Notes under the pieces: generated by a model
The model's database searches: none
What the model was told of the DNA's origin: nothing
The model's input: the letters and a program-made list of their open reading frames with translations, nothing else
NCBI GenBank assembly: GCA_026419785.1
Contig: JAODTK010000688.1
Coordinates: forward strand, 248,001 to 312,000
DNA from: Sclerodactyla briareus
Lineage: Eukaryota > Echinodermata > Holothuroidea > Dendrochirotida > Sclerodactylidae
Direction: 5' to 3'
DNA: 64,000 nucleotides
Program-made: the position numbers and the translations under genes
In this document: positions 23,814 to 62,340 of the stretch, one piece after another
How the letters are laid out: each line of letters opens with the position of its first letter
Numbering within the stretch: position 1 is the stretch's first letter

Positions 23814-23992
23814 ATTCCAGAGATTGATGTCCCCAGCCAGGAAGCAGCACTTGTTTTCTTGCCGGAACTCTGGCGTTTCTGGAAACTCTGGCGTTTCTGG
23901 ATGGACAGGTGCCCAGCCCATCATGGTCGAGATGCAACGACTGGAAACATTCATAGATCCTGACAAACCTCTTTACAAACCTGGTCAAACTG
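23814..23992 (+). CDS. CD109/A2M-like exon 1 in window: end of MG1 and start of MG2
   Basis: The acceptor is a T-rich tract ending in CAG at 23811-23813; the donor GTATGC starts at 23993. In the frame set by the 3' half the exon ends IMVEMQRLETFIDPDKPLYK followed by PGQT, the hallmark of the MG1/MG2 junction (family consensus FIQTDKPIYKPGQ). It ends in phase 1 (a lone G). The 5' half is uncertain. The same frame gives a poor sequence there, while the frame starting exactly at the acceptor reads PEIDVPSQEAALVFLP, which looks more like an MG1 strand. The switch falls near an 18-bp tandem duplication at about 23869-23905 that encodes NSGVSG twice. A frameshift there, or a wrong base count, is likely. 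Exons for the signal peptide and most of MG1 were not found upstream. Confidence 0.82.
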
Positions 23993-26900
23993 GTATGCTA
24001 GATGCTAATCTCCAAAATAATTCTTTTTTTGTGTGGGCCAATTTCATCACATTGAGTTGCATGTACCATCTGTGGGCATTTTCAGATGCTATTGAATGTG
24101 GAGACTCGTCTGAAAGAAGTTCAGGGAGAGAGAACCTTAGCATCACTTTATATATGTGTGTGTGTGACCCCGTGTCATGTAACATGTAGTTTGTAACTCA
24201 GGTCCTGTTAGGGAGAGCTCCTCCAAAACAATAAGACATATTTTTGGGGACACAAAAAGTAATTGAGAAATGGGGTCCATATCCGTCTATTTTATGTGAT
24301 CCTTTTCAAGCTTGTTTCCCCGCAAATTAGGGCACCGAGAGAAGCTATGTAGGTAATGCATACATAACTTGATGAAGCAATTGCGCGCGCAAATATGTTA
24401 AGTATAATAAGTGGTCTAATTGCAATTGTTGGTTCATTTTCAAGTTTGTCAGATTTTCATGAAACTTTGTGTGTATAGTTTAACTTAATCCCAAGAACAC
24501 AGGGATTCACTGGAGGTTTTCTATGTGTCTAATTGCAACAAACACCAAAACAAAAAATTCTCACTCATTCTTTATTAAAGTGCATCATATGCAACTATTC
24601 TTTGTTTCCACTGGATAAATGTTTTCCATGTGACCATAATCAGAATTGAAAATGAGCAACTTTACAATTAAACTTTTATATGAAAACTGGAGATTATTTA
24701 CTCTCAGCAATGCAATGCCTTTTAGTATGATAATCCCTCCCTCTTTTACACCTTGTTTCCACAGGGAATTCGGGTCCCTCACCCTAGACCAGAATCTGAG
24801 GACTGTGACATCACCGGTATGTGAAAAAACTTGATTGCTTTATTCATCTTCTGAACTTTTTCCTGCGGATTACAGTAACTCTGTGCACTTTCTGAAGAAG
24901 TACATCGCTGATTACTATCCAGCCCTTCCCCACCCCCTCTGCATCTAATGCGATACCTGTTTTCTGTGAGGTCCCCCATGTATGCACTTACATCAGAAAG
25001 GAACTACGTGCAAATAGGGAGTTGATCCATCCTTTACAGAATTGCAAACTTCAAATTTGTTCAGATCGTAAGTCTAAGAGCCTGCCTGCTGATAATCCAA
25101 TGAATGTATTGATTTGTCCTCAAGAGGTCCCCCTTTATTGAATCGGCAATTCTGCAGGTTCAATTTTTCTTCTCTTTATACCACCTGGTATTATGGGTGC
25201 TTAAAAAGAAAAACCAGAGGAAAGTGTCTGTTGAATGAAGTTTCATCGGGCCTTATTTCATGCCCTCCTTTCCAGCCTCGAAGCTACCCATACTATGGTA
25301 ATATAATGGGTTTGATTGATATAAAAAGTGCAATTGAAAATTTTGAAAATTTGCGGACTGATCACCATTTCCTCATACTAGAAAATGGTTTGTGAGTGCT
25401 TAATTTTTGCCATGACGTTCTCTTCTCATAGGTGAGGTATCGATCGATGGCACTGATTTTCAATATCATTGGTGCTTATTTTCTCACACTTTAAGATATA
25501 GGCCCACCTCGTGTATCATGTCTATTTAGGTTTTCAGCTCCATCTGTGATGTTTTATACACAGGTAAACTTGGTTTGCTGGTAACTTTAGCCTAATCATT
25601 TGACAGTCTGCTTGGCTTTTTTTCTGTTAGTGTTCCACACCTACAGAATACCATATTTAGAATGAATCTATTTCTATTTTTGGACCATGCACCCCACCCC
25701 GTGGCATTGACATTTTGCAGTAACAGAACAGTCCAGGTTTGTCCACCACCACCCCCTCCTCATTTTGCCAGACGTTTCTAGTTTTCTAGTTTTGTGTACT
25801 GCCAGATGTTCAATGGCATGGGGGTGGGGTGCATAGTCCAATATGGGGTAAGAAATTCATACTTCACCGGTTCACAAACCAGTGAAGTTTTGTTAAATAT
25901 GACATATTGTCCAAACACTTGTTCTTTTCTACCCAGCCATCTGAGCTGGAATGAAAGACAGAGATTATAATCTTATATGATCTTGTCATTCATTAATGAC
26001 GGTGGAACAAGATTTGGGTGGAACCCCCAGTGGTGTTCGTGTTGCCCAGTGGTTGGACGTTGAGGGAGAGCAGGGTCTGGTCAGTCTGGAGCTACCAATG
26101 ACCTCTGATCCCATGATGGGTGAATGGAAGATCAGAGTCGTGTGCCACGATGTGCCAACAGAGTCATCGTTCGTTGTGGATGAATATGGTAGGTGACATC
26201 TATTCAGGCGAGATGCGCTGTGACCGCTGAAATATTCGCCAGGGAGAATTAGTACTCCCCATTCATAAATATCACGTGACCTATGTATGTAGAATTAGCA
26301 TGTAAAAGTGAATTATAACCGGTTATTATTCTGGTACTAAACACCGGCTCCGACCAAATAACGATAAGGCTTAAGCACGCGACAGGCACTGCCTTGGTTT
26401 TACGCATCGGCTCACAAAGTCAAACGCGCGCAAGCAATTGCGTTGAGTTTTAGCCGTCGCAAACACGATATGCGATGTACAAGTGCACGCATGCGTGTAG
26501 CTTGCCCAGTTAATCGAACACTCCTCGAACGTTTCAATGCCAATTTTAAACATTAATCCCACACTTTTCGTATAAACAACGAGTAGAGTAACTGGGTATA
26601 TATGAATGGGAATTATAAACAGATACTTGTTTTCGAATTGACACCGGTTTGAGGTCATAATAGTCTGACCTCCTATTATGACGTCATCCTGGTTTTCCCT
26701 AAATCTCTAAATAATAGTAATCTCCTCCTGAGTACTTGTGAGTACACCTCCTGATTCAGCCCTCACTACATTGAATATGTCCATGCCAGCCAAGTCTTCT
26801 TACCCGTGGGCTAGGCTCTGTGCTGGGTATATTCAATTTTCGGTAAGGGCTGTGAATCCTCTTTGTCCTCTGGTTCTGGGCCACATGACAAAAAAGTAAA

Positions 26901-37300: not shown

Positions 37301-40300
37301 TTATGGTAGTTGTATCTCCCATTCAACCATCTATCGTCAACCACTTCGTAGCAGGTAAAACTTGTTGTGATGTTTTATTATCTGATAATTAAAAAAACAA
37401 CAACAACATAGGAATAGCCACAGGGAATTAATTTGGTAGCTAGCTCTGGATGTCAATAAAACATTTGTAGTTGTAGCTCGCTCTCATGAATCAATCACCT
37501 GTAGCTGATTACAGCAAACTTGTTGGGATGTGTTTAGTAATTAGTCCAGCTCTGGGAAACTAAAAACCTAATAATAGCCAAAGCTTGTGTAGCAAGCTCG
37601 TATACAACTACTGGCAGCAAGATATGTAGCTGTAGCTAGCTACTCAGATACAGCTACTGGCAACAAAATATGTAGCTTTTAATAGCCAGCTATCCTGGAT
37701 AGCTATTGCCAGTAAAATATGTAGCTGTATCTAGCTATCCTAGATACAGCTATTGACAGTGAAATGTGTAGCTATAGCTAGTTATCTTAGATGCAGCTAC
37801 TGGCAGCAAAATATGTAGCTGTAGCTAGCTATCCTGGATACAGCTATTGGCAGCAAAATATGTAGCTGTAGCTAGCTATCCTAGATACAGCTATTAGCAG
37901 TACAATATGTAGCTGTAGCTAGCTATCGCCTACACCCAGTTGTTGCTGGCTATAGCAACACTTGTGATGTGATGTATTCTATTCTTGGCACTGAAAATGT
38001 GTCTTGATTGAACAGTCCACTGGATGACTGGATCATTTCAAGATTAGGGAGAAAAAAAATGTTGAAAGATAGATTGAAACAAAACCTTTCATTCATTCCT
38101 CCTTGACCCATTTCCTTGACTGACAACCTTTGTAGCAGATAAATCACAGTAGATCTGAGAGATTGGCCTACGCATCCTGTTCGTACTTATCACCAGGTTC
38201 CAGTCTGGTGAGGATTGCCATGGCTGTAAGGAAGCCCCAGGCACCCTTCATAAACAGTGAAGTAGGGGAAACTAGTGGGTGGACCATAAATCCAACCCCT
38301 CCAAAGTTTCCTGTCTTGATTCCTGTAACTTTGACTCTGGCTGCACTGATATCATCTAGACCCTCAACTATATTGGTACTATCAATGCTCAAGACGAAGG
38401 ATTAGGACAAAGACTCTGTTGTTGTAATGTCAGAGTACTGGTTGCGCTCATTTGATTATTGTTTCGGTGGTTCCCCTTCATTTGGCAAAGAATAGTGCTA
38501 GGTTCCGCCTTGAATCCAAGTGTGTTTGTGGTACTCAAATTATGGTCAGTTCTGACATAACTGTTTGCTTTATAATCATGATGCCTCCCTTCAGGTCCTG
38601 GGTTCTCAATTTCTCCTCTATCCATGGTCCCTTGTGATGATCGGAAAGGTTTTGAATGATCCACAGACAGTCTTACTGACTCGGAGGAGGGGAGTCCCCA
38701 TCCTGTATGTTTTTCATTGTTTTTGAGGGTGCATAGATGGAATATGGCGCACTTATTATATTATTGCACCATTTGTCACAGTCCTTGTCAGTGCATCTCC
38801 AACATTCAGTTTGTGGGTGGGAGGACTTTAATTTCTCAGGGGTGACTGGGGAAACTGCCCTCCAGAAAAGTCTAATAATTCAGAGCTGCAGATTCAACAG
38901 GGTGTACGTTTTTTTTGTTTTTTTTCAGTAAGACTATTGAAAGAAAACAGAAATGTGAGAAAATCCACATTCATGTTGCACCTCACATTTCATTATCCTG
39001 ATGAAAACCTGGGGGCACAGAAATATTGTGCCCCACCACCCTCCCCTCCCCCTCTTGGCCGTGCCACTGGCCCATGTCATGATGGGAAACTTGTGCCATC
39101 TCTGCCCTTGGGGTATGCTATATACATGTAACATGTTTTCATGGTCAATGGTGTTTCCTACAATCTTCATTGGATCATTATTAGTGCACAGCCTATCAGT
39201 CTCGTACTGATTTCAAATCCCTTTGATATTTTTCCACAGTTCTTCCTAAGTTCGAGGTCACAATAGATGGACCGTCCTATGTGCTGATCAACGAAACGTC
39301 CATCATTTACACAATTTGTGGAAGGTATGTCACTTTACATTTTGAGCTATTGTGATCCTCATATCACTTCCTATCTGTCTATCTTCTTCACCTATGAATC
39401 TATCCATCTCACTTGATTCCTTTTCTCACTCTCAAATGTTCGGTCCATGATGGGTGTTGACTGAAGTTGAATACCTTGTTCATTGGATTCGGAAAGCCTC
39501 AATTTCAAAAAAGTCAATGTGATCATTATATCGCCCCTAAAGGGCAAGTCCAGCCAAAAATATTCAAATTAAATGTCATATGATGGTGTATTGAAAATCA
39601 TGCCAATCAAACTTTGTTTCATGTTAGTAGCATGTTTGGTTACAAAAGTTACAAATTTTTAAAGATTATAATTACATCACGGCTAAGTTGGCAATTTAGC
39701 AAATTGGTAACATTCGATGATGTCATATCTTCCAATTTTAAAGAAGAAATATGTCTTAACTTTTCCCTTATAAAAATATGTCTTAACTTTTCCCTTATAA
39801 AAATATGTCTTAACTTTTTCCTTATAAAAATATGTATTAACTTTTCCCTTATGATTGGTACATATGACATCATATAAAGGTTGCCAATTTGTCCAAATCA
39901 CCCTATTTCTGAAATTTGAGGGAGCCATATCTTCCCAACCGAACATGCTATAACCTGGAACAAAGTGATATTTGAATGATTTTTTCATTCTCTTTAACAT
40001 TATGACACCAAAAAGATTATTCATTGGGCTGGACTTTGCCTTTCATGAGCCATTATGTGTAATGAATTAAAATGCATTTCCTGCTATGAAGAGCCTATTT
40101 TCTTGAAACAGACGTTCATGTATATTGACTCTTATTTTTACTGAACTTCATATTAAGTATAACTCAATTTACTTTATTGTTTCAAACACATTACATAAAA
40201 AAGACTATGTGAATATGTTGATTCGGAAATTTGGAGCCCGTCATCCCCAAGAGCCCGGTTCTCCTCTGATCCTGATTGACCAGGCTCTACTTTTGGGACC

Positions 40301-50000: not shown

Positions 50001-52457
50001 ATAAACAGCCCAGGCTTCTCCATATTATGTGTATAACAAACAATGTACTATCTGCTCTTATATTGTGGTTAACACCGTGTTTATGCTAAGGTGTGGGATG
50101 CGCGATCTGCGCCCACAAACTAAAAATCCCGATAAAAATATTTTATGCAGAAATTCCGCACTGGTTTCCACACAGGCATAGCAAATTTTGCACTGTTGTC
50201 AACCCTCCACGACTTGGTACGTCGGGTATGCATGGTACCAAGGATTCGCTGATCTATCTTTGAGACCCCCCCCCCCTCCAGATTTCAAAATCCCCCTTTG
50301 AAAAATTGTGAGGGGGGTGATTTCCCCCCCACATTTGAAACCTAGCGTAAACACTGGAATAACACGCAATGTGCAAAGAAAATCCATACATTGATACATC
50401 TCCATAACACCACCTTAACCCTAACACTGATCCTAACATAACCTAACCTAACACTCACTTTGTTCATAATGCCCAATATAGCAGTATTTGTACATTGTGT
50501 AATATACACAATATACGGTTTGTGAGGACGGGTTGGTACAATTGCACATACTATGGAAAGCAGTGATTGATTGAAAGCATTGATAAACTTGAACGTAGGC
50601 TTACCCTCTGCTTCATCCATGCAATTGATGCGATTGGTGGAATTCACCTCTCCCAACTACAGGCCTATGTATCCGAGAGAACCGTACCACGGGTCCCACA
50701 GCCTTCACGCAAGTACGTCATACGAGGGGGGACAGCACAGGCCGGCTTCAAGTCTACTTCTCGCCCAGTGACACCTTCCTCCAGATCACTCCAATAGCCT
50801 ATGAGTTCGCAGTGGACAGCCAGGCCACCGTCGATATATCGTACGTCGGCAGTGGAAGGCTTCAAGCTAGAGATCTCAAAGCCTTGGTAAGTTTACTAGG
50901 CTTCAAAGGACAACTGCAGGATCCGTTATGAAGAAGCTGATATAATAACTGAAGAAAAAAAAAATTAGCTGTCAGAAATTTTTAGGCTAAGAAATTGTTT
51001 AGCATTGAATGTGTCAGTTAAATCCTGATTTCGTGCAATTCCCTGTTAAGTTTAGTTAGTGAAAAAGGGTCAGGATAGACAACATTCGCATGAAGACACA
51101 AAGCCATAACATCCCGGAAGAGAAGAACCCAAAAGAATTCGCCCACAATTGTTGAAAAATAAATCAGGACTGTTCTTGAATGCTTCACACTCTTAGACAG
51201 GACAACTCTAGAGGGTTATTTCCACTCCCCCCAAAAATTAATAATTCTCTGCGAGGAGAAATATTTCTGAATGTCCAATCTACAACATTTACCACAAAAC
51301 TTGGGGCAATGACCCCTATTGGTGGTATTTCTGGAAAACTTAAAAACAGTGGGAGGAAAGGCCCTCGAATCTGAAACAGTTTTGAAAAACCTGAATCAAA
51401 TCACCACAAATTCCGAGATGCCTTAATCTTTCCTCGTAATGTAGACAGTGAATTAACTCTGTTATGCAATTAGAGGCATTTGGATGTAAGTATTGCACAA
51501 GATTGAGAAGCATTCCATCATGCAATGAAAAAATTATATCATACTTGAACAACCGTGCAAGTATTCCTTGTCTTCAAGTTAATTCCACTCCAAGAGTATT
51601 AGTCTGTGGGAGGGGGTTGTCGTATTGGTTTGATTACTTCTGTGAGAGAAATACAATGGAACTCGTGCTGAATGTGAGCTAATCTATAGCGCTGACTGTA
51701 CCTACCCTTTCTAACTACCCTTAGCAGTGTTCTAGTCTATTGTGCCTTCAAATTCGGCATTATAGAACTGCCAAGCTAGCCACATCTGGGCTAGAGGCAC
51801 AATAGGCTGATGTAGTTATAAAACGTAAAGGTACATCGCTAATAAATTATCATATCAATAACTCACATAGGACCATCATATTGTAAAGAGGTTTTCAGTT
51901 ACACTCGCCTCTGTGACCAAACGAATCCATTCAGCTTTCTGCTCTGAGGAGAAAGATCTGTTTACCTACTTCAGGGTGGGTCCTTCTCCATGTGTTTTCA
52001 CAGCGACTTTCAAGGACAGCGGGCCTTTTGGATCATTTCACCGTACCATGGATTACCTGGTTGGAACAGTACATATTCATTCCACACAATCGAGTTGATT
52101 GAAGATGGCCAGATTAAATTTGACTTTGTCATTAGCAAAAGCTGTCTGGTTTACATGTGGTGATGAAGGAATTATAGGTGGACATTATTCACTCTAGGGT
52201 CCATTCCTGCTGGCTGGCATCCAACCTCTTGCTTCTTATTTTCTGTTTTGCAGTTTATGGCTAAGGGAGACTTGGTCCGACCAGAGAGTAGGTTCTCTGT
52301 CAGCAGACGAATCTCCGGAGGTGATTTACCTATATATTTTATGTATTCTCACACTGGACATCATTCATGCATATTCATGCATATAACCATATTCAACCCA
52401 CAGGTAGCATGCTTGTCACCTGTGTGTTGAACATTTACTGTATCCCGCCTGTCATGA

Positions 52458-52490
<33 letters not shown>

Positions 52491-55400
52491 TACATTTATA
52501 AAGGCGCCGGTATCTGTCCAAAGGTGATCATTGCGCCCTGCAAGAACAACCAACCTAGTGAAACCATATCTGAAAAAGGCAAACAAGAAACGACTTCTCA
52601 CCCCAACGACTTCTAGCCACATGAACACGGAGAAGGCCCCCGTGATGACAAAAAGGAGAATTTGTACTTAGAGCCTAAACTCAAATAATAGCCTCAAGTA
52701 CACAAGGGTGCTATTGTTAACCGCCTCGGTAAATTTAGGGGCAGGCTTCATCTTGACCAGCATTTCGTCCTGTGGGATCAGTCAGGATGTCATAAAACAA
52801 AACACTGCCCTCATTTTCAATCTGAGGTAAGGATGCGATTTGAAGGTACCTGATTATTAAACGTACCGTTACGAAATGTAGAGGGTGATAAACAGTACAA
52901 GAGGTCACTGCTTGCATAAAAGCGTTCGTCTCTGAAATATGGTCTCAAAGCATTTTACCCATATTACCACTGGACCTTCGTAGCCTATTTCAGCGAATAG
53001 GAGGGGGCTGTCATCAGGCTTCCTGAGGAGTCCAGCACCAGACAAGCTGGCATCAGCACTATGCCTGCAAAGGTATTCTAGTCCACCTGTACATGTAGGA
53101 AGGTCTGGTGAACTTTTTTCTTCCTATCCCCATTATTTATTCAAAGATATAAAAGACAAGACAAAGGATCTGGACAAGCAAAGAGAAACCTCATTCCTAT
53201 GACCCAAAGGTATGCCTGCCCTAGAACGACACGATACAATCAAATTATAAAATGCAATGAATACCTGGGGAGAGGAACCATCTATTGCACGGTCTCGGAT
53301 AAATTACGGTAATGATTCTTTATGGCAAGTAGGAATGACTGCGAGGAGTCACAGAGTAGTTCATCCCCATAAATTTGACCGAAGACTGGAGAATACATCT
53401 ATGGGGCGAGTCCTGGGAAACTCAGTGCACGGAAAAACAGCATCGTTGTGTCGGGCATTAACAGCAGTAATATATAAAAGGTCACCTGTGGGAACTTCAG
53501 CTTGCCATACAGACATTCAGCAATAAAAGATGGTAAGTTGATGTTGAACTGACTGGCAATAGTATACCAGTTCAGAGGTGAAACTCTCCGAGGATGACTT
53601 AACTCATCACTGTGCCACACCCCCGGGATGAAGTGTATGGTTTGTTTCTTCACCTGGCTCTTGTTCTGTGGTCCCCGATAATAAAGAGATGATAGGGTAC
53701 TAACAGACCCTTCAACATTTCACTGTTCTCAGAGAATGATCCGTATAAGCCCTCCTGAACCTATTTTTTTTTTTTTGGCAGATGGTAGACGCTCTGCCTT
53801 TAGAGTGCAGCTGACCTTCACAGTCACAAGGGAGATGGTCCCGATCACCAACTGCTGGTATACTTTGTCCACAATGATGAAGTCATTGCAGACTCCATCG
53901 TTTTCAATGTCCAGAAGTCCTTGGAGAACCAAGTAAGTGACGCTCATGAGACTTGATGCTTCAAGCCCAAACTGAAATGGCCTTTAAGCATCCATTGCGA
54001 TGTTCAACTATGGATGTAAACGTGACTTGACTCTGATACTCTCTATCTTTAACATTACCCTCAGGTTTAATATCCTCCCGTTACAAGTGGAAAAAAAAAA
54101 CACATTCTCTAATTGCGAAGTTCCCCTTGTGATGTCACCACACCATGGTTAAACCTCTGTAATAGGGAAAGCCACTGCAAAAACATATTCCTGAAAACCC
54201 TGTGACAAGTGAACTATGGTTGCAATCTAAATAAAACTAATAAAATCATTCACTGTGAATGAGATGTCTGATTCACTTCTTCGTAATAACGCATTTTAAA
54301 ATATCTGTAATTGTGAAACATTGGAGTAACTCGGCAAGGCAACATGCTACATTCTCCAATTTGGGGTGTGATTCGTCCTCCTCACTCATGTCTAGTACAA
54401 AGTTACTTGACCATTCTAATTTATCGAGATAGATTTTTGCTACGAACCAAGTGCAAAATACCTGTCAAAATACCCGCACCAACTTAAAAATTGCAAAAAA
54501 AAATCTCCCACAGGATATGCCATCCATCTGATTATGCACGGGGAGATAGCCGCAATGTTCAACTAACTGGAATAATATCTTTTGAGCTTGAATATGTGCA
54601 ATTGTGCGACTGTGTCATCAATCCCAAGGTTCGAATCATCCCTCAAACATCAAAACATCTGTGATTCACGCTTTAGTATTTATCGCACACCAGATGTACA
54701 TGGGTTCTGGACATGTTTTTTTTAGCTCACCCCAGCATGTGCTCCTGCCTGTCTGTCCATCTCTCCCCAGTTGATTTGAATTTTTACTTCTCCCACAGTG
54801 TTGGATAGTGAGTAAACATGGATTTACGTCTCGAGGTCGGAGGTCATCCGGGGGTCATTTTTGCCAAATAGTTATTTTGGAGAGCATGCTTCTTCTCGAG
54901 GCTTGGCAAGGGTGCAGATCTGGCTACTGCACATTTTTTGATTCCTTGACGAAGTCGGAGGAATCTATGCAGTCATGACAGTGTGTGTGTGTGTGCACGT
55001 GTGTGTGTGACGCCTAGCCTTGTTAACACAATAGCTCGACCCCACTTTGATGTATCAAGTTCATACTTATGTTCGTACAAGTTATATGGGTTCCCCCTAG
55101 TGAGTACATAATCCCTAATGGTCTAAGGTCAGATCTGAAGTAATCTGAGGTCAAGAGAGGTCAAAGTCTGAAAATGTTGTGAACACGGTAAGTCCAGAAT
55201 GCCTAACCCGATCAGGTTGGAATTTAGTATGCAGCATTTTATGGAAAAAACAAGAACAATATACGTTTGGTTTGTGACTGGAGCCACTTTGGGAGGAAGT
55301 GGGGATATTGTGAAAAATCAATATTTTGGCTAATCATAGCTTGTAAACAAGACCTTGTCTGCATAGTTCCCTATTATGAGTACTACAATGATCCTTATTG

Positions 55401-58400
55401 TCAATCTTGACAATGCTTAGCTTGATCAAGTCAGGATCAGTCAAAACAGGCTTTTTCTGGTTGTTAGCTGCGTACCCTCCACCAGGTACATGGAATAAGT
55501 CAATGCCCCTCTGACAGTGCTCCAACGTGGAGGTTTAGGTAATCTCACGCAGATGGGAACTTGCGAATTGCTTACCCCTCATTTGTCCTCGCTTCAATCC
55601 TACATGTGCTGAATGCCCTGCGAAGAGGCGACAGGTGCCATTTTCAAAGCCTGGTAGGACCCGACCGGGATCGAACTCTGATCTCCCGGGTGGAAGGCCG
55701 AAGCCCTACCAACTGTGCCAACACCACTCATGGTGGTGTTCATGTCAGCACATTTATGTTTTCAACTATAGCATGAATGTGTACCTTTTTTGCACACAGG
55801 CCAAGTGAAAGGTATGTTTTCTTACAGTTCTGAAACTGTTATGACATGTTTCAAAATATGATTTTTTGCTACACTCCTCAGGTTGAGATCGCTTTCACCT
55901 CGGATGAGCGGAAACCAGGGGAGGAAACTTGGATAGACATCAGCGCAGCACCCGAGTCCATCTGCGGGTTGGGCGTCGTCGATAAGAGTGTCTATCTCTT
56001 GGGAGGTGGCCAGAATAACATCCAGGAGAGAGAGGTGAGATCTGCTAGATTTAGATACAGATAACATTTTGTGCCTCAGTATCCTAGAATAAAAATTCTC
56101 CAATTCGGTTGTTTGCCTTCCTGATATGGATTGGCTCATTCAGCAGACATTTGATTCAGCAGAAATTGGAATCTGCCAGATTTGATTTCGATTCTGATAG
56201 ACTAATCAGCTCTTCTTCTTCGTTCCTGCGCTAGTTGAAATAAGAACTAATGTCGGAAAACTAGCTCAGCACTGCCATTCACCCAGTATGGAATAGGCTA
56301 CAATTTCAGTTTTCATTGTCATTCTATGATTCAAGTTGAGCCAGGCTTAGTATCGTAATGTAGGCACTGGCAGAGAAAAAAAAAAAAATAGATTGTAGGT
56401 GTACCACTGGTAGCCAGAAAGAGGGAGAAGAAGTGTGTGTCTCTGTGCAGCAGACTAATTACGAGTGTATTGTATACTCCAGTGTAGTGGTCACCTGATA
56501 TAGTTCATCTGCTTTTACCTCACCTCCACCTCACCGGAGTCTTAGGGACCGTAGGGGTGCCACAGATGACCTTGCAACCACCTCGCTCCACGTTTTTCTG
56601 TTCTCGGCCTTCCTCGGGGCACCAGGCAGGGCTGGGACCTCCATTTCTGAGATGTTCTTTCTCTGTCTGCCTCTTCTTCTTCCTCTTGGTACCGTGCCGC
56701 TCAATTATCTTGATTTAACGTTTCAGCCTTTTTATTCATTCAGCCTTTATGTCATGTTCTCTTTCCAGTCACAAATCTACCCATACAGTAGTAATCTATT
56801 GTATTGACTGATACAAGAATTACAATTGAAAAAAAATCTGTTGAAGCGGGTGTATTAGGTCTGAATTCAAAATTTTGTGGAATAAGTCCCCGGGGCAAAA
56901 CATATATACATTTGCTGTGGCCGGCTGTCTTTTTTGGAAATTTGCAAACTGATCACCATTTTCTCCAAGAATAGAAATGATTGGAGTGCTGTAATTCTGA
57001 CTGAAGTTCTTCTTGTGGATGAGGTATCGAACAATGGCATTCATTTTCAATGTCCTTGATGCTATTTTCTCGAATATTTCAAAGGCTGGACGGAACTTTG
57101 ACTTGGTAGGCATTTTGTGCCCCCATCTGACATACATGAGTCAATGTTTTGACCTGCAGCCACTTTCCTGCTAGTGTGTGTTGAAGAAAGTCGATATATT
57201 CCGGATTTTCTGCTGCTTCATCCGGCATTACATTTTGCACTGCCCACAATTATCTTCTATAGCAATGGCTTGTTCAAAAATTGTAGAGATTTTTTTAAAG
57301 ATACTATTTCCAGCCATGTTTAAATAACTGTCGAATTGCTAAATGGTAGATTCTCGAGTCACTTATTGTAACACGCTGTTATGGTCGAACCATTCATCAA
57401 ACAATCTGAATATTCCAGCGGGGGTATAGTTGGCTGTTTCCAATAATTGGAAGAGAAATTACAATTTAGGACAAGGACGTTGAGCAGAGTAGACAGACTA
57501 CAGAAATGATGGCGCACTGCAGAAATGTAATGATGGCTCTACTTGCGGGATAAAAGCCAGCGGGAAATCAGGAATATATAAACGTCTTAGCACAAGACTA
57601 CTTCCCTGCTTGTGAAACGAGTGAAGGAAGCAATGTCAATGAATTGGGGCAGATTTCCAACCGCAAGGAATCACAAAACCATTTGGCTTTTGGTTGCAAT
57701 AAAGTGTGTGAACTAGATGATCAGGATCAGTGATTTTTTTTAAAATTTCCCCTGCCCCTGGTCCCCCCCTCTTCTCCCCTCCCTCACAAGGTGTGGAAGT
57801 ACCTGGAGGCCAGTCAGCTGGGGGCTGAGAGCGGGATTAGCAGTTCCAGGTGCCAGACTGGGGACTCACCCTGGCATCTCCGCATGAGGCCACAGCCTGC
57901 CGAGGTGGATGCTTCTGCAGCGTTCAATGTAAGTGGGATTCAGTTGTTGCACGTTTTTTTGTCTTAATTGTCGTCCAAACGCAGTATTGGAAGGAATTCT
58001 CTGATCACTTTGGTTTCTTATCCATGTTGCTGTGTGGGGCATGAAAAGTCCCTGCAAGAATAAGCGACTTTGCCACCCGGAATGATCACCTGCCATTTTT
58101 CTGCACATTCTCCTGATCTCACTTGGGTTTTATCTTACTGATGGCACTATATAACACAATATTTTTGTTCTGGCTAACAAAACAAAAAATCTATTTACCT
58201 TTTTCGTAATATCAAAATCTATCATCCCACCCCCCCCCCCCCCCCCCCCGACTTAATTTGCTCTTATAGCTGCTAGCTTCAAATAAGACATCAGCACGAA
58301 AGTCATCAAAAATGTTTGTGTACCTTGTCAATTGTATACCTCTATCCTTCTCAATAACCGGGACATCCCCAATACTTCCATATGTCGGTTTGCCCCAGCT

Positions 58401-60904
58401 TGTACTGGGTAGTGAGAGGGGGGGGGGGGAGGAAGGGGAGTTTTAATTGACCAGTGCATCAGCATCCGAGTAGGAATCGTCTATGTGGGGGTTGTCTAGC
58501 CCTGTGGTCTCCCCCCCCCCCCTCCCATTCCCATAATAGACCTTTTTGCTGATATATTTGGTTGCACGTGGGATTAGTTTTGATTTTGATGCATGCTGGG
58601 ATACTTAAGGGGGGGCAGTGTTGTGTTAGCATGTATTGGGGAAAACTTGTAAATTCAAATTATCTCACTCATTGTCTGAGCATAGTCTCTCAAAGTTCAG
58701 TATGATGTCCCCGATAAGTTTTTTAAAATATCTTCATTGTGACAAATCTGGACGATGTGCTATTTTCGCGAGAAAAAAACAATTTTATCTGATTGAAATT
58801 TCTATTGGCCTCCCATAGATTGCCCACTTGTCCCCTGAGCTGGACCACAATGCATTGCGAGAGGCTATTGCTAAAAGGCTAATGATGATGGTTTTCTGCT
58901 TTGTGTTGCTCATCTTCTATTCTCTGCTTTATCGTTCTTTTCGCGGAGGCGGGCCTCCAGTATTTGACAAACCCTTGTGGATAGAGTCTGCTCCCTGTCC
59001 CAGCTATCGTAGTGAGTGTGGTCTTCATGTAAGGAATCCTCGAAGGAAACTGCAGGCTTGATACAACTAAGGTTATATCGTGGAGAATGGAAAACTGTAT
59101 CTATAGGTCCAAACCCCATCCCATACAATGTTCCTATGTGGAGTTATTGGCTCTCAAAAGTTTGGTCCATTAGCAGAGAAATTGGGGAGAATCTAATACA
59201 AAATAATGCATGACATCACACTTGGACAACCGGGAAGTTATGTCATTAATTTTATTGTTCATTTTGTGATAGTGTTCAACATTCGCAGAAGTACTGTTGA
59301 ATTTCTCTCAATAAAGTAACCATTAACACCTACGAACTTCGGGTTTGGACTGGCGCATCCAGTTTTTCTCAAGCTAATGATATTGGCCCTCTACCATAAT
59401 TCAACCTGCAGTTGTCCTTGCAATACACACTCTTGCGACAGAATTCCTTTAAAATGGCACAGGTGGAAGGAGAGGTTATCAAAATCCCACATCACAAATT
59501 GTCAGGTTCGCGCATGGTGGTTCGTTGAGTTACTTTGAGTTTATGACATCACGAAAGGGATGTTGTGAGGGGGGGGGAGGGAGGCAATGCGACGGGCTGG
59601 TTCCAAGGACCTCTTAAACAGGACGACAGGAAGAGGTATTCACATATAGAGGTAAATGAGATTATTCTGAAATATCATGTGAACAATCTAAGTTTTAGCA
59701 AAAGCTTGCTGTGGATTGTTCAAGCCATGACTGTATTGTTATTTAGGCGCCCTCTGGAGGAATTCACTGCAGCAATTATTGAAGAGAGTTGGACCTCTGC
59801 AGCAAAAAGGATACTTCTTTTAGTCCAGCTACTTTGCAGTTCACGATATGTGGATGCTTGTCGATATATTTGCCATCACAAGACTGAATTTCTCAACCCG
59901 TCAAAAATGGCCGCTAGGCTTGTGGCCAGTTGCATGCTTGAAACTGTTTGGTGGCTACAGTCAGGCAGTTATAGCCTCACACCTTGCGATCAGGCATGCA
60001 GAGGGGAGGCTGCGAGGCTCGCACTCAGCAAATCCCGTACAGTGTTGTAAGGCAGGCCTAAGGGTTGTCCATGACAAAAACTGTATCGCTCTTTGAACAA
60101 AATTCAACATGAGATACACTGTGGCATTTATATCACACAATAATTCATGCTGCAATGAAACAATAAATTATTTTCAACCCTGGTCGTAGGTTATCTTCGT
60201 GAGATATTCGCGCCAACCAATGGTAGCGTTTCACCTAGAGCCTATAGATTACCTGTCCCGTCTGGTGATTACTAATTGGGGATGGCGTAGGTTGGCTTTG
60301 CTGAACACTATAAAGGACGAGAGAAGGGCCATAGAATTGAGAGCTAATAACAGAATACTTTGGTTAAAGCCTGAAAAATACATTTCCCAAGTAATGTGAA
60401 TCCTCCAACCCTCCACGCTCTCCTCCCCATCACGTCCCACACAGGCGTTCGAAAACCCAAAGTTCGTGGTGGGCCTAGACCCATCCCCATGGCCATGGAA
60501 GTGGATTTTCTGGACGACGATTCTGGCGATAAGTCAGCCGGGGGTGCGTGACCAAGGGTCCCAGCGAGCATCCCAGTTCTAAGGTCCGATTTCCCAGAAA
60601 CTTGGCTGTGGGACCTTGTCCCGTTGACAGGTATGTTTCTCCAGCTGTAACAAGCGAATGAGCAAAGTTTTCCTTTTTGTCCCTTTTTAACAGGTGAAGG
60701 GCCCATGGCGAGGGCAGGTGACATTGACTTCTATTTTTTGAGAGCCGCCGAGCAAATTCTAATTTTTGATGCGTTCTGCGGATGGGCTTTTGATATTCAG
60801 GGTAGTGGGATGGCTGGGGAACCTGTGGGCAGGCCCTCATGAGCCTCTCGTCTCCGGTCATACTTCCCAGAAACTTGGCTGTGGGACCTCATTCCCATAA
60901 ACAG
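23814..60904 (+). CDS. CD109/alpha-2-macroglobulin-like thioester protein gene, partial (overview of about 14 exons plus an alternative last exon)
   Basis: This is the span of one interrupted gene; the exons are listed separately. Joined in order, they give the family signatures DKPLYKPGQ (MG2 start), VAQWLDV and GEWKIRV (MG2), LPKFEV and YTYGQPV (MG3), FIGDKKFK and VKVTTPDG (MG4), MAKGDLV and DEVIADS (MG5), GVVDKSVYLL (MG6) and FPETWLWDL (after the bait-like insertion). Family members are large secreted or GPI-anchored proteins. They trap proteases or opsonise targets through a bait region and, usually, an internal thioester. The signal peptide, CUB, thioester and MG8 parts are not in the window, so A2M, CD109 and TEP subtypes cannot be separated firmly; VDKSV and the short bait-like insertion lean towards CD109/TEP. 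Splice phases chain as 1,0,1,2,0,1,0,1,0,1,0,0 and then 0 or 1. Several exons need one-base corrections. A pseudogene is possible but less likely than sequence error. Confidence 0.88.
23993..26011 (+). other. Introns 1 and 2 of the CD109/A2M-like gene (around exon 2)
   Basis: Apart from exon 2 nothing coding is seen. About 25250-25500 is a dispersed repeat that recurs, diverged, at 56740-57070 (CTACCCATAC, CTGATCACCATTT, GATGAGGTATCGA and similar phrases in the same order). Around 24430-24530 is a fragment of the repeat with GATTTTCATGAAACTTTGTG. Confidence 0.6.
24765..24816 (+). CDS. CD109/A2M-like exon 2: MG2, 52-bp micro-exon
   Basis: A strong acceptor (pyrimidine tract, CCACAG) and a consensus donor GTATGT at 24817 flank a 52-bp exon. 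Its good frame reads SLTLDQNLRTVTSP, the expected MG2 segment after KPGQT (family pattern: V-x-F-R-x-L followed by a TLDxxLRP-like stretch). It ends on a codon boundary, matching exon 3. Exon 1 leaves one base, so this exon should be 53 bp. With 52 bp the phase-correct reading meets a TAG after seven codons. One base seems to be missing near the start, in the GGGAATTCGGG stretch, where the family expects V-K-F-R. The flanking introns are 0.77 and 1.2 kb. Confidence 0.72.
26012..26188 (+). CDS. CD109/A2M-like exon 3: rest of MG2
   Basis: From about 26029 the frame reads SGVRVAQWLDVEGEQGLVSL and continues through DPMMGEWKIRVVCHD to VVDEY. This is the core of MG2 (family: DPxGxRIAQW, LGxWKI, VxEYVLPKFEV). 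It ends in phase 1 at donor GTAGGT (26189); the left-over G plus TT of exon 4 gives the V of YVLPKFEV. The best acceptor is the AG at 26010-26011. From there the frame starts IWVEP, exactly what the family has before the SG, but it is one base out of register with the rest. The offset falls in the C run at 26024-26028. Length 177 also misses the 178 required by the phases. An alternative acceptor at 26029-26030 avoids the shift but does not fit the phase of exon 2. Confidence 0.9.
31238..31335. repeat. (CTGT)n microsatellite
   Basis: CTGT units with CCGT interruptions. It precedes phrases such as GAGATCTCCTGAACCGTGG and GACGAAACTTGGTGGAGATGG, the usual body of a dispersed repeat. Frames on both strands stay open as repeated CLSV or TDRQ and are not genes. 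Confidence 0.9.
31780..35060. repeat. Higher-order tandem array, unit about 595 bp, five to six copies
   Basis: The landmark GGACGCATAC (or close) recurs at about 32036, 32603, 33196, 33795, 34389 and 34980, a spacing of 567-599 bases. Each unit contains an internal doublet about 150 bases apart (TAGGAGTGGATGTATCACAT at 33891 and 34041 in the fourth copy). The fourth and fifth units are nearly identical, whereas the first three differ by many one-base losses. Diverged pieces continue to about 35780. The repeated open frames at 33727 and 34282 come from the array. Confidence 0.88.
37575..37930. repeat. 47-bp tandem repeat with self-complementary units, about seven copies
   Basis: The unit reads approximately AAAATATGTAGCTGTAGCTA, GCTATCCTGGATACAGCTAT, TGGCAGC. 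Each unit holds TAGCTGTA and its complement TACAGCTA about 20 bases apart plus several TAGCTA words, so each single strand can form a hairpin. Copies differ mainly by substitutions rather than indels, unlike most arrays here. Confidence 0.85.
38165..38395 (-). pseudogene. Possible LINE endonuclease fragment
   Basis: The minus-strand frame contains TGIKTGNFGGVGFMVHPLVS followed by a hydrophobic stretch. The pattern G-N-F-G-G-V-G-F-x-V-x-P resembles the endonuclease domain of non-LTR retrotransposons, where a G-G-V-(G/A)-F-L-(I/V) strand precedes a variable part. No catalytic residues or RT domain are seen beside it. The neighbouring minus-strand frame at 38389-38664 may belong to the same relic in another register. 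Confidence 0.3.
39240..39324 (+). CDS. CD109/A2M-like exon 4: start of MG3
   Basis: The acceptor is TTTTTCCACAG; the donor GTATGT starts at 39325. Read in phase 1 it gives LPKFEVTIDGPSYVLINETS and then IIYTICG, with an open frame and no correction needed. The family consensus at the MG2/MG3 junction is YVLPKFEV followed by an I-x-x-P pattern and a xVxxxY strand. It ends in phase 2 (AG), which with the first G of exon 5 makes the R of RYTYGQPV. NET is a potential N-glycosylation site. The upstream intron is 13 kb, the largest here, and is filled with repeats. Confidence 0.93.
39538..40044. mobile_element. Foldback/MITE-like element, about 507 bp
   Basis: The left end AAAGGGCAAGTCCAGCC (39539-39555) is matched by the reverse complement of the right end, AAAGGCAAAGTCCAGCC (40027-40043). 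A second inverted pair lies inside (GATGTCATAT near 39720 and ATATGACATC near 39862). Short elements beginning with such a GGCAAGTCCA box are, from memory, frequent in echinoderm-type genomes. No transposase is encoded and no clear target-site duplication was found. A 27-bp tandem repeat fills the centre. Confidence 0.65.
39748..39855. repeat. 27-bp tandem repeat, four copies, inside the foldback element
   Basis: The unit is ATATGTCTTAACTTTTCCCT then TATAAAA. As 27 is a multiple of three, frames on both strands remain open and give nine-residue repeats (ICLNFSLIK on the plus strand). The copies are nearly identical. Confidence 0.9.
40407..41610. repeat. 33-bp minisatellite with a ~134-bp higher-order period
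   Basis: The basic unit is close to GTTTGTACCCCTTGCTCTGT followed by GAGGTTGTGGGTT. Between about 40570 and 41115 the landmark CTCTATGAATATGTTG recurs five times at 133-136-base spacing, i.e. four basic units per higher-order unit. Because 33 is a multiple of three, the minus strand stays open for long stretches (184 codons at 40709-41263) as an 11-residue repeat such as QPHRARGTNKP. Nothing suggests it is translated. Confidence 0.92.
42740..42842 (+). CDS. CD109/A2M-like exon 5: MG3
   Basis: The acceptor is GTCTCCCAG; the donor GTGAGT starts at 42843. The phase-2 reading gives YTYGQPVQGSVVAQLTPELM and then YTRNEVSPITFTAS. YTYGxPVxG is one of the best-conserved family motifs and marks the second half of MG3. 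The reading is open throughout and ends on a codon boundary. A second GT at 42841 would give a two-base-shorter exon in phase 1 and is less compatible with exon 6. No sequence correction is needed. Confidence 0.93.
43508..44746. mobile_element. piggyBac-like non-autonomous element, 1239 bp
   Basis: Both edges are TTAA (43504-43507 and 44747-44750). The left terminus CCCTCTATGTAC and the reverse complement of the right terminus, CCCTTTATGTAC, match at 11 of 12 positions. A TTAA target duplication with ends starting CCC is the signature of the piggyBac superfamily. Removal of the element with one TTAA restores GATATTGTTAATGGCTGTC, which is present uninterrupted in neighbouring minisatellite units, so the empty site is visible. 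No transposase is encoded; the 124-codon frame at 43843-44217 has no recognisable motif. Confidence 0.85.
43520..43543. repeat. Perfect 24-bp palindrome near the left end of the piggyBac-like element
   Basis: The half-site AATGTGCGGTGT is followed at once by its exact reverse complement. It starts 12 bases inside the left terminus. PiggyBac-type elements often have subterminal inverted repeats that bind transposase. A full copy was not found at the right end, where only related words (TTGTGTGCAG on the minus strand) occur. Confidence 0.85.
46229..46353 (+). CDS. CD109/A2M-like exon 6: MG3, probably one exon with a frameshift
   Basis: The acceptor CATACAG follows an AT-rich microsatellite; the donor GTGAGT starts at 46354. 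The first part reads TRPNGCVNARFDL and the last part KLRLSANFTETATG, both well placed for MG3 (family ending: A-x-VTE-x-x-TG). Two readings connect them. One is a 40-bp intron, 46272-46311, with GTGAGT and CAG ends, which would be unusually short. The other keeps those bases as coding: the frame continues REWSLTDNYYSLH, filling the spacing seen in CD109, and needs a one- or two-base correction near 46308-46313, where a TAA now sits. I prefer a single exon. NFT is a potential glycosylation site. Confidence 0.78.
46822..46931 (+). CDS. CD109/A2M-like exon 7: end of MG3 and start of MG4
   Basis: The acceptor is GCTTTCCAG. The phase-1 reading starts GVEISEEDNNAG. A second frame then gives NEVYELEFIGDKKFK, the classic MG3/MG4 link (family: Y-x-LEFIGxKxFKPGLPF), and the original frame returns with RPVLVH before the boundary. 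The two switches are near GGCTTACC (46853-46860, one base missing) and AAAAGGG (46905-46911, one base extra). They cancel, so the 110-bp length still fits phase 1 to phase 0. The donor at 46932 is GTTTAG, a weak site that may itself be misread. The first codons of exon 8, VKVTTPDG, continue the protein directly. A long CTAT/CTGT microsatellite starts 25 bp downstream. Confidence 0.85.
46955..47162. repeat. (CTAT)n then (CTGT)n microsatellite
   Basis: About 90 bases of CTAT units pass into about 115 bases of CTGT units with AGGT interruptions. It starts about 25 bases after the exon 7 donor. The body of a dispersed repeat (CGATGAATCTCTACCAGACTTG) follows. Confidence 0.93.
47702..47860 (+). CDS. 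CD109/A2M-like exon 8: MG4
   Basis: The acceptor is AATGTTAACAG; the donor GTAAAT starts at 47861. The phase-0 reading starts VKVTTPDGIPAPNVIVDLDM and then TTGDV, a textbook MG4 strand (family: VKVTxPDGxPAPNV). A TAA follows at once. Further on, the same frame gives ISSGSNGLAI and another frame gives FEIDSVDTKFYFTS, both plausible for MG4. One extra base at GTGTAACG, one missing base soon after it, and one missing T at GCTATTTCG would restore a continuous reading. The net change also turns 159 bp into the 160 bp required by phase 0 to phase 1. Confidence 0.85.
47861..50662 (+). other. Intron 8
   Basis: Apart from the hairpin-headed tandem repeat listed separately I see no gene. The remainder includes a C run at 50269-50277 and AT-rich unique sequence. 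Confidence 0.6.
48525..49450. repeat. Hairpin-headed repeat with ~143-bp tandem body
   Basis: The head is a hairpin: GCTCACCCCAGCA (48525-48537) and TGCTGGGTGAGC (48540-48551), a 12-bp stem with one bulged C. Then come TATTGTGATCCTGCATGTC, CTGT units and a body repeated at 140-144-base spacing (CTTCTCCTCCTACAAATTCT-type phrase at 48779, 48919 and 49063, a looser copy at 49376). The second and third units are virtually identical. A second head, without the right arm, is at 54724. Confidence 0.85.
50663..50886 (+). CDS. CD109/A2M-like exon 9: end of MG4 and start of MG5
   Basis: The acceptor is CAACTACAG; the donor GTAAGT starts at 50887. Read in phase 1 the 224-bp exon is open from end to end (74 codons) and ends on a codon boundary. 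It contains ENRTTGPTAFTQV, LQVYFSPSDTFLQI and EFAVDSQATVDISYVGSG. The middle matches the family's MG4/MG5 boundary, where a strand of the type SxSxxYLQI precedes a xxVGxxxxxxV-x-Y strand. NRT is a potential N-glycosylation site. The first four codons and the last few look less typical than the core, so small errors at the edges are possible. No ATG lies in this frame, so an ATG-based search misses it. Confidence 0.87.
50887..52253 (+). other. Intron 9
   Basis: I see no gene, array or recognisable element in this 1.37 kb. Confidence 0.6.
52254..52320 (+). CDS. CD109/A2M-like exon 10: MG5
   Basis: The acceptor is TCTGTTTTGCAG; GTGATT at 52321 is the donor. The phase-0 reading is FMAKGDLVRPESRFSVSRRI and then SG, ending in phase 1. 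The family has Y-x-V-x-SRGxIV here, so MAKGDLV is the local equivalent. The exon is 67 bp and needs no correction. It is followed by a 1.46-kb intron. Confidence 0.85.
52321..53781 (+). other. Intron 10
   Basis: It contains an (AAT)n tract at 52459-52489 and otherwise unremarkable sequence. The open stretch near 53010-53080 is not needed, because exons 10 and 11 join in phase and sequence. Confidence 0.6.
53782..53932 (+). CDS. CD109/A2M-like exon 11: end of MG5
   Basis: The acceptor is a long T run ending GGCAG; the donor GTAAGT starts at 53933. The phase-1 reading gives RSAFRVQLTFTVTREMVP. One base out of register, DHQLLVYFVHNDEVIADSIV and then FNVQKSLENQ follow. The second segment is the conserved end of MG5 (family: LLVYYV-x-x-DGEVVADSxxFxV). 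The shift falls in the CCC at 53839-53841; adding one base gives 152 bp, as phase 1 to phase 0 requires. The join to exon 12 (NQ then VEIAF) matches the family, where an NxVxLxFS strand opens MG6. Confidence 0.92.
54937..55390. repeat. Hairpin-headed repeat, GATTCC type, single copy
   Basis: The head has GATTCCT (54938) and AGGAATC (54957-54963) around a 12-base loop, then TATGCAGTCATGACAG, a GT tract, and a body with AGCTCGACCCCACTTTGATG, GAGTACATAATCCCTA and AGTCCAGAATGCC. The same order of head, tract and body is found at 19007-20110. Confidence 0.8.
55530..55735 (-). mobile_element. tRNA-derived SINE
   Basis: On the minus strand TGGCACAGTTGG (55709-55720) is a near-perfect A box and AGTTCGATCCC (55667-55677) a near-perfect B box, about 52 bases apart edge to edge, as in tRNA genes. 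Between them GGCCTTCCACCCGGGAGATC is of the usual anticodon-arm/variable-arm type. A non-tRNA body (GCATTCAGCACATGTAGG and beyond) extends to about 55530. The head does not fold as a clean tRNA, so it is a SINE rather than a tRNA gene. Confidence 0.75.
55882..56034 (+). CDS. CD109/A2M-like exon 12: first half of MG6
   Basis: The acceptor is ACTCCTCAG; the donor GTGAGA starts at 56035. The 153-bp exon is fully open in phase 0 and reads VEIAFTSDERKPGEETWIDI and then SAAPESICGLGVVDKSVYLL and GGGQNNIQERE. The pattern S-x-C-G-L-G-V-V-D-K-S-V is diagnostic for MG6 of the A2M/CD109/TEP family (AVDQSV or VDKSV in relatives); the cysteine is the one also conserved in A2M. It is the cleanest exon of the gene and needs no correction. 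Confidence 0.96.
56035..57790 (+). other. Intron 12
   Basis: It includes a LINE scrap (listed separately) and a dispersed repeat at 56740-57070 that matches 25250-25500. The rest, including 57150-57700, shows nothing recognisable. Confidence 0.6.
56548..56715 (-). pseudogene. C-terminal fragment of a LINE reverse-transcriptase ORF
   Basis: The minus-strand frame reads GTVPRGRRRGRQRKNISEME, a proline-rich stretch, then RKAENRKTWSEVVARSSVAP and a stop. Many non-LTR retrotransposons end their ORF2 with KGRQ-(R/K)K-x-W-x-DNI-x-EW, a spacer, then A-x-(N/D)R-x-x-W-x-x-(L/V)VA. The order and spacing match, although W-x-DNI is degraded. The RT core is absent. Confidence 0.55.
57791..57928 (+). CDS. 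CD109/A2M-like exon 13: MG6 linker leading into the bait-like region
   Basis: The acceptor is CCTCACAAG; the donor GTAAGT starts at 57929. In phase 0 the 138 bp are open: VWKYLEASQLGAESGISSSR, then CQTGDSPWHLRMRPQPAEVD and ASAAFN. The beginning fits the helix after VDKSVYLL (family: VFxxLExYxL) and DASAAFN resembles the family's DAxxAFexAG. In between, another frame gives CPDWGLTLASPHEATA, which could be the true middle. If so, two shifts are present. Exon 14 works best in phase 1, which would also require one more base here. Confidence 0.75.
57929..60444 (+). other. Intron 13
   Basis: It holds a C run at 58229-58249 and G or C runs at 58418-58429, 58510-58521 and 59571-59577, and a dispersed repeat at 59050-59440 that matches 21420-21960 (TTCCTATGTGGAGTTATTGG, AGAGAAATTGGGGAGAATC, ACCATTAACACCTAC in order). 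The 161-codon frame at 59565-60050 shows no family features. Confidence 0.55.
60445..60630 (+). CDS. CD109/A2M-like exon 14, copy a: bait-like segment plus FPETWLWDL
   Basis: The acceptor is CGTCCCACACAG; the donor GTATGT starts at 60631. In phase 1 the exon reads GVRKPKVRGGPRPIPMAMEV, then DFLDDDSGDKSAGGA, one TGA at 60549, then an open stretch ending VLRSDFPETWLWDLVPLT. FPETWLWDL is the conserved start of the second half of MG6, just after the bait (A2M) or bait-like (TEP, CD109) insertion. The acidic, proline- and glycine-rich stretch before it is poorly conserved, as expected for that region. The TGA disappears if one base is missing near GGTGCGTGACC and one extra near CGATTTCCC. The length (186) fits phase 1 in and out without net change. 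Confidence 0.88.
60694..60904 (+). CDS. CD109/A2M-like exon 14, copy b: paralogous alternative exon
   Basis: A 63-bp intron after copy a ends in a long pyrimidine tract and TTTTTAACAG. The phase-1 reading is open for 48 codons (GEGPMARAGDIDFYFLRAAE, then further to GSGMAGEPVGRPS), meets a TGA at 60840, then gives SRLRSYFPETWLWDLIPIN and a donor GTATAT at 60905. The 24 bases coding for CCAGAAACTTGGCTGTGGGA and its flanks are almost identical to copy a, whereas the upstream bait-like part is diverged and longer. One protein would not carry FPETWLWDL twice, so the two copies are probably alternatives. The exit phase is 2 rather than 1, perhaps from one extra A in AAACAG. It could instead be a dead duplicate. 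Confidence 0.75.
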
Positions 60905-61059: not shown

Positions 61060-62340
61060 AAGGAGTCTCTTAGATTGGTCCACACGATGAACCACGAGGC
61101 GTGTCTCCTAGGTTGTCCCGTGCTATATCCAGGAGGCGTGTCTCCTAGATTTCTCCCACGCTATATCCACGAGGCATATCTCCTAGATTGTCCCATGCTA
61201 TATCCACGAGGCATGCCTGGTAGATTGTCCATGCTATATCCACGAGGCGTGTCTCCTAGATTGTCCCATGCTATATCCACGAGGCGTGTCTCCTAGATTG
61301 TCCCATGCTATATCCACGAGGCATATCTCCTAGATTGTCCCACGCTTTATCCAGGGGGCTATCTCCTAGATTGTCCCATGCTATATCCACGAGGCATATC
61401 TCCTAGATTGTCCCATGCTATATCCACGAGGCGTGTCTCCTAGATTGTCCCATGCTATATCCACGAGGCGTGTCTCCTAGATTGTCCCATGCTATATCCA
61501 CGAGGCGTGTCTCCTAGATTGTCCCACGCTTTATCCAGGGGGCTATCTCCTAGATTGTCCCGCGCTATATCCAAGAGGTGTGTCTTCCAGATTGTTCCAA
61601 GCTATATCCACGAGGCATATCTCCTAGATTGTCCCATGCTATATCCACGAGGCGTGTCTCCTAGATTGTCCCATGCTATATCCACGAGGCGTGTCTCCTA
61701 GATTGTCCCAAGCTATATCCACGAGGCGTGTCTCCTAGATTGTCCCAAGCTATATCCACAAGGCGTGTCTCCTAGATTGTCCCAAGCTATATCCACAAGG
61801 CGTGTCTCCTAGATTGTCCCATGCTATATCCACAAGGCGTGTCTCCTAGATTGTCCCACGCTATATCTACAAGGCGTATCTCCAAGATTGTCCCACGCTT
61901 TATCCATGGGGCGTGTCTCCTAGATTGTCCCACGCTTTATCCAGGGGGCTATCTCCTAGATTGTCCCATGCTATATCCACGAGGCGTGTCTCCTAGATTG
62001 TCCCACGCTTTATCCAGGGGGCTATCTCCTAGATTGTCCCGCGCTATATCCAAGAGGTGTGTCTTCCAGATTGTTCCAAGCTATATCCAGGACGCGTATC
62101 TCCTAGATTGTCCCATGCTATATCCACGAGGCGTGTCTCCTAGATTGTCCCATGCTATATCCACGAGGCGTGTCTCCTAGATTGTCCCAAGCTATATCCA
62201 CAAGGCGTGTCTCCTAGATTGTCCCAAGCTATATCCACAAGGCGTCGTCTCCTAGATTGTCCCAAGCTATATCCACAAGGCGTGTCTCCGAGATTGTCTC
62301 ATGCTATTGACGAGGCGTTGCCTCCTAGATTTCGTCCCAT
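61060..62340. repeat. 37-bp minisatellite, about 34 copies
   Basis: The unit is TGTCCCATGCTATATCCACG then AGGCGTGTCTCCTAGAT. Variants (CACGCTTTATCCAGGGGGCT; CGCGCTATATCCAAGAGGTG) recur in the same order at about 61340 and 61500-61590 and again at 61930-62060, so blocks of units have been duplicated. Plus-strand frames stay open for 60-119 codons (MLYPRGVSPRLSHAIS type), a by-product of the unit. It starts about 155 bases after the exon 14b donor and is probably intronic. Confidence 0.93.

Follow-up and report, generated by a model that had tools for sequence, protein, structure and literature searches.

The 64,000-nt window analyzed here, from the sea cucumber Sclerodactyla briareus, contains an A2M-type gene whose recognizable exons span the region between 23.9 kb and a point about 27 kb past the end of the window. 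On the + strand, matched stretches are equivalent to human A2M 120-143 (KPLYKPGQT; 23920..23991, E 0.22), MG2 (human A2M 170-224; 26026..26187, with a weak Pfam MG2 score of 18.3 bits against a cut-off of 32.8), 225-254 (VLPKFEV; 39239..39328, E 0.044), 452-484 (50758..50856, weak, E 0.37), and 526-568 (53811..53935). These are followed by an exon 5' of the bait (VEIAF...VVDKSVYLL; 55867..56034, its start being that of the matched stretch and its end a donor read by eye). Such stretches lie in the right order and on the same strand on either side of two head-to-tail exon-like segments, which we term exons 14a and 14b.

Exon 14a (60445..60630, + strand, 186 nt) runs as read from phase 1 to phase 1 and comprises an acidic bait-like segment, VRKPKVRGGPRPIPMAMEVDFLDDDSGDKSAGGA, an in-frame TGA (60549..60551), and the segment LRSDFPETWLWDLVPLT. 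A 63-nt intron with a long pyrimidine tract (60631..60693) separates it from exon 14b (60694..60904, + strand, 211 nt), which opens in phase 1, closes in phase 2, and has a longer bait-like segment, a TGA (60840..60842), and then LRSYFPETWLWDLIPIN. Each copy ends in FPETWLWDL, followed by a CAG/GTAT donor. The first-pass annotation had described tandem copies with their own acceptors and GTAT donors, a common phase-1 opening, the shared FPETWLWDL ending, and the 63-nt intron, all of which we saw again in the sequence; its statement that the bait parts are unrelated also holds, their similarity being at the level of shuffled sequences (328/1000 shuffles for DNA and 317/2000 for protein). It had listed stops at 60549 and 60840 only as possible refuters, and as assembled a TGA does close the frame in both copies.

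Splice sites were scored along the + strand of a 124-kb stretch (8091 GT and 6808 AG dinucleotides) with a simple matrix. By this measure, the donors of 14a and 14b fall within the top 0.32% and 4.36% of GTs, and their acceptors within the top 1.59% and 0.13% of AGs, respectively. Candidate branch-point adenines in the 63-nt intron are located 20 and 23 nt past the donor of exon 14a; a third candidate, 3 nt from the acceptor, is too close to be usable. The next exon has its acceptor at extended coordinate 66211 (C684:314211) and opens in phase 2, so that 14b alone joins it in frame, 14a as read being out of frame.

Taking these features together, we consider it somewhat probable that 14a and 14b are alternative versions of one A2M-type exon, used one at a time as a two-member mutually exclusive pair. 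The exon would encode the protease bait and the conserved FPETW block after it, and the upstream exon would be spliced to either 14a or 14b, the chosen copy being joined in turn to the exon at 66211. Joining of 14a to 14b would be hindered within the short intron because the candidate branch points are so close to the donor of 14a. Were both copies to open in phase 1 and close in phase 2, the inclusion of both or of neither would break the frame. Either choice would leave the protein unchanged except for its bait, and hence alter the set of proteases able to spring the trap. In favor of such a pair are the closing phase of 14b, which is that required by the next exon, and the bait being the published site of alternative exons in the A2M family. 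Counted against it are the TGA in both copies, the 186-nt length of 14a, the failure to identify exon 13 directly upstream of the pair at this locus, and the C1916 paralogues, of which the one on the + strand has a single FPETW exon and the one on the - strand yielded none. Nor could similarity to the human bait be detected in the bait part of 14b (its score is reached by 484/2000 shuffles and 120/705 genomic windows). The VRKPK of 14a weakly resembles human A2M IRKPK, with a score reached by 90/2000 shuffles and 19/1021 genomic windows. The earlier proposal, two bait exons in tandem within an A2M-type gene with putative exclusivity through the short intron, is still the best explanation, with the qualification that both copies carry in-frame stops.

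The two copies share an identical 26-nt core, TTCCCAGAAACTTGGCTGTGGGACCT (FPETWLWD plus CT; 60591..60616 in 14a and 60864..60889 in 14b). When 264 kb were compared on both strands with up to 8 substitutions allowed, the only other match was in the C1916 paralogue, with 5 substitutions. A degenerate FPETWxW codon pattern has four exact matches in the whole 319-Mb assembly (14a, 14b, one in a paralogue, and one elsewhere), versus 0 for the reversed control. Over the block's first 8 codons, 14a and 14b agree at all synonymous sites, a coincidence with a chance of about 0.0013 under uniform codon use. The acceptor, donor, and FPETWLWDL are retained in both copies, while the likeness of their intronic flanks is at chance level (566/1000 and 858/1000 shuffles reach the observed scores); this suggests that selection kept both blocks after the duplication, although gene conversion could be another source of the synonymous-site agreement. 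We regard it as unlikely that only one copy is used and the other is a duplicated-exon remnant, with splice sites kept by chance or through recent conversion of its FPETW block: the misfit of 14a with the next exon, the lack of recognizable bait similarity in 14b, and the identical 26 nt would agree with this, but good-scoring acceptors and donors persist in both copies alongside FPETWLWDL. An assembly duplicate, with one copy absent from the animal, is highly improbable; the assembly is error-prone, but a false copy would have common flanks, whereas here the likeness is confined to the 26-nt core and the bases close around it, the bait parts and introns being different.

The whole locus might instead be a decaying pseudogene and the pair an old duplication without present importance, a reading that we hold to be rather doubtful. 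Besides the TGA in each bait exon, the next exon has 3 frameshifts and two TAGs in 78 aligned codons, and the thioester stretch has 3 frameshifts and 1 stop in 129. Across 13 aligned stretches of the gene, a count that leaves out both bait exons and is inflated by exon edges, there are 15 frameshifts and 3 stops in 640 codons, versus 11 and 0 in 1146 codons for seven actin and alpha-tubulin stretches of the same assembly. However, the HSP70 loci carry more damage (54 frameshifts and 3 stops over 1169 codons), yet their protein is still close to human HSPA8; four A2M stretches (26026, 39239, 55867, and 91374) are unbroken and stop-free in one alignment run, two of them gaining a single shift at the upstream edge in another; and the FPETWLWDL blocks and splice sites are intact in both copies. 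Because the actin, alpha-tubulin, and HSP70 stretches are likewise broken by indels, the lesions in 14a, 14b, and the next exon are proof of neither decay nor function. The draft is too error-prone, and therefore the working state of both copies cannot be demonstrated from it.

The first-pass annotation had thought such an arrangement new for an apparent deuterostome; as a kind it is not new. Alternative bait exons or splice variants have been published for snail A2M, CD109, and TEP2, for scallop TEP, and for Drosophila Tep2, and papers citing the original work attribute them to shrimp and tick A2M as well. The 14a/14b pair would belong with these bait variants.

The two exon copies 14a (60445-60630) and 14b (60694-60904), which are separated by an intron of 63 nt, are a real tandem pair and most likely serve as alternative exons for the bait of a gene of the A2M type. 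All four of their splice sites score well against a generic matrix, with the 14b donor being the lowest. The first-pass annotation had described tandem homologous exons, each with its own acceptor and donor, and this description holds, with the homology lying in the FPETW block alone, i.e., the conserved end (FPETWLWDL) that follows the unlike bait-like parts. The copies share an identical core of 26 nt; a gapped alignment extends some 50 nt upstream of it, where the likeness is at chance level (250 of 1000 shuffles), and the remaining exon parts and the introns likewise lack above-chance similarity. A recent segmental duplication was ruled out, as the flanks are unrelated. Across the whole assembly (319 Mb, 3171 contigs), the FPETWxW pattern has four exact matches versus none in a reversed control, namely, 14a, 14b, a site inside an A2M paralogue (C1916:274365), and a site at C2909:161305, around which A2M context was absent in 240 bases. 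No extra FPETW copies, with up to three edits, were found from 61 to 66 kb. Contig C1916 bears two more A2M-type genes on opposite strands (230001-370000, stretches L011-L024); that on the + strand has one FPETW exon, and none was found in that on the - strand.

The gene around the pair was traced in the window (C684:248001-312000) and the 60 kb past its right end, where extended coordinates above 64000 continue along contig C684. Stretches resembling human A2M, used as the query sequence, lie collinearly on the + strand at 23920, 26026, 39239, 50758, and 55867, at the FPETW pair itself, and at 66235, 78945, and 91374, with E values against this query from 0.37 to 1e-21, those at 50758 and 23920 being the poorest. 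A further A2M-like piece of the gene is found at 53811 and weaker ones at 42741, 47699, 75204, and 83084; the same search gave other, similarly weak pieces, which were not used. Pfam recognizes the bait-region domain (PF07703) at C684:303867-304001 (32.4 bits; cut-off, 22.7) and the A2M domain (PF00207) at C684:314232-314399 (36.1 bits; cut-off, 21), the latter with two TAG codons inside. The thioester motif, GCGEQN, which contains the expected GCGEQ, is present at 78945, and a C-terminal receptor-binding domain, FTLVQDVKVKNTKPSFATVYDYYKT, is suggested at 91374-91448 by similarity to human A2M only (56% over 25 residues). Taking the collinear stretches, the Pfam domains, and the GCGEQN motif together, we place the pair where the bait exon of an A2M gene is expected.

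The thioester-domain stretch scores 4.3e-18 with A2M versus 6.8e-17 with CD109, and the MG2 stretch scores 7.3e-5 with an A2M fragment, 2.4e-4 with CD109, and only 1.6e-3 to 1.9e-3 with full-length human A2M; these values do not separate A2M from CD109. In 20-35 kb, a Pfam search of two + strand frames out of three gave a weak MG2 match and nothing else, the window had no Rfam match at the gathering score, and the assembly had no match to cytochrome oxidase I. Exon 13, expected just before the pair, was not found from 56.0 to 60.4 kb. In a PDB search with the stretch 55876-56037, Kelch-type proteins came out on top, none of them with an individually passing stretch, followed by A2M-like protein 1 (E of 0.00097) and A2M (0.0079), with one stretch each; hence, we dismissed a Kelch identity as composition noise. 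At extended coordinates 78887-79277 (stretch L003), the thioester part and the next stretch are uninterrupted, whereas in the + strand paralogue on C1916 some 1.8 kb lie between them, which constitutes an intron difference.

As read, 14a and 14b are not interchangeable in frame: they measure 186 versus 211 nt, and each carries an in-frame TGA 5' of the FPETW block, at 60549 in 14a and at 60840 in 14b, but assembly indels make this reading unreliable. Also as read, the closing phase is 1 for 14a and 2 for 14b, and the next exon of the gene opens in phase 2 at its acceptor (extended coordinate 66211, C684:314211). In a frameshift-tolerant alignment to human A2M, the TGA of 14b is bypassed by two shifts with a score of 88, and a shift-free alternative that treats it as an extra codon scores a nearly equal 87; for 14a no shift was selected, and the TGA remains. 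These alignments thus favor neither gene decay nor assembly noise as the origin of the TGA codons. Breaks are also found elsewhere in the gene, with two TAG codons and 3 frameshifts over the 78 aligned codons of the next exon and 1 stop and 3 frameshifts over 129 codons of the thioester stretch.

One explanation for such breaks is decay of the gene and another is noise in the assembly; these were weighed by applying the same frameshift-tolerant alignment to conserved control proteins, in stretches hand-picked from family matches, and to the A2M stretches. Seven control stretches, six of actin (from 9 of 16 actin matches) and one of alpha-tubulin (from 2 of 7 tubulin matches), contain 11 frameshifts and no stops in 1146 codons. 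The HSP70 control, which omits the C11 locus as well as the final HSP70 exons on L036, contains 54 frameshifts and 3 stops in 1169 codons (16 stretches from four loci on C2424). The gene bearing the pair has 15 frameshifts and 3 stops in 640 codons (13 stretches, with 14a and 14b excluded) and the C1916 paralogues have 11 and 2, respectively, in 565 codons (11 stretches), these A2M counts being inflated by exon edges and divergent proteins. Because the control proteins differ little from their human counterparts (alpha-tubulin, for example, shares 344 of 360 residues), most control breaks were taken as indels of the assembly, in which uncorrected indels seem to be numerous. Contig C2424 (stretches L035, L036, and L037) harbors several partial, heavily frame-broken HSP70 loci whose protein is near human HSPA8, and true pseudogenes may be among them. 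At the actin/alpha-tubulin and HSP70 rates, at least one indel is expected in a 62-codon exon with a chance of 45% or 94%, respectively, and at least three in 78 codons with a chance of 4% or 70%. The break rate of the A2M gene lies between both controls, so decay and noise are inseparable by this measure. The stops were accordingly dismissed as proof of a pseudogene, since actin, alpha-tubulin, and HSP70 stretches are frame-broken too, and equally as proof of sequencing error, since the actin/tubulin stretches have 0 stops in 1146 codons.

Within the 63-nt intron, two adenines at distances of 20 and 23 nt from the donor of 14a are candidate branch points, and a long pyrimidine tract is present as well. 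A parallel is suggested by exons 4a/4b of OGDH, whose mutual exclusion is attributed in PMC7969005 to branch points that lie close to the 5' splice site; OGDH is an unrelated gene, and the branch point in the 14a/14b intron is only predicted. Branch points so close to the 14a donor would, as in OGDH, hinder the joining of 14a to 14b. Moreover, skipping or adding 14b (211 nt) would shift the frame, a property that 14a would share only if it were one nucleotide longer than read. Based on the predicted branch-point placement and this frame effect, an exclusive choice of 14a or 14b is structurally plausible.

Comparable arrangements are described in PMC7016707. There, alternative exons are reported for the bait region of Biomphalaria glabrata BgA2M and for BgCD109, and BgTEP2 is given 12 tandem mutually exclusive exons in which some C-terminal residues are extremely conserved and the rest variable, much as 14a and 14b are conserved at their C-terminal part and variable elsewhere. 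The 12 BgTEP2 exons span 30 kb, whereas 14a and 14b lie inside 460 nt; BgA2M has three variants, encoded by a single exon or by two (exons 17 and 18). The B. glabrata variants are transcript-backed, whereas 14a/14b are predicted from the genome. As related in PMC7016707, Chlamys farreri CfTEP also has mutually exclusive exons in its bait-like region, though with six exons, seven isoforms, and demonstrated expression; Drosophila Tep2 has a comparable alternatively spliced bait-region exon but five isoforms and is an insect TEP rather than an A2M; and Fenneropenaeus chinensis A2M-2 offers bait-region variants of A2M proper. Splice variants of a tick TEP are mentioned, and a paper on the tick A2M bait is cited, in a Daphnia paper (PMC2685406), and the title of the tick paper recurs in a 2026 review (PMC12939704); by this mention and title, Ornithodoros moubata has bait-region splice variants of A2M proper. 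In a fish, the Hilsa shad, 12 A2M isoforms are reported, only a few of them with the bait region, and the passages covered of PMC6650032 describe no choice among bait exons.

Alternative bait-region exons are thus already known in this protein group, and 14a/14b would be a further example. In searches of the open-access literature, judged mostly by the entries listed, no report of a bait-exon pair in a deuterostome was found. If the host is a deuterostome, the pair might represent a mutually exclusive A2M bait-exon switch of that lineage, with the synonymously identical FPETW block being an RNA-level signal that allows either exon to be used, a proposal we consider rather unlikely. The bait sets the range of proteases that an A2M molecule can trap. 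A switch of two exons would be the smallest possible form of the bait diversification of snails and scallops and would offer a simple system for linking exon choice to protease specificity; in a deuterostome host, it would also widen the known range of bait-exon switching.

Several repeats accompany the gene. Directly downstream of the pair, 61092-62342 is a minisatellite of about 34 copies of 37 bp with a higher-order period of 479 bp, and three repeats of a 146-bp unit occupy 62551-62985. The region 40174-41685 is likewise repetitive and yields long frames on the minus strand, the NPQPHRARGTNK type; it looks like a minisatellite rather than a gene.
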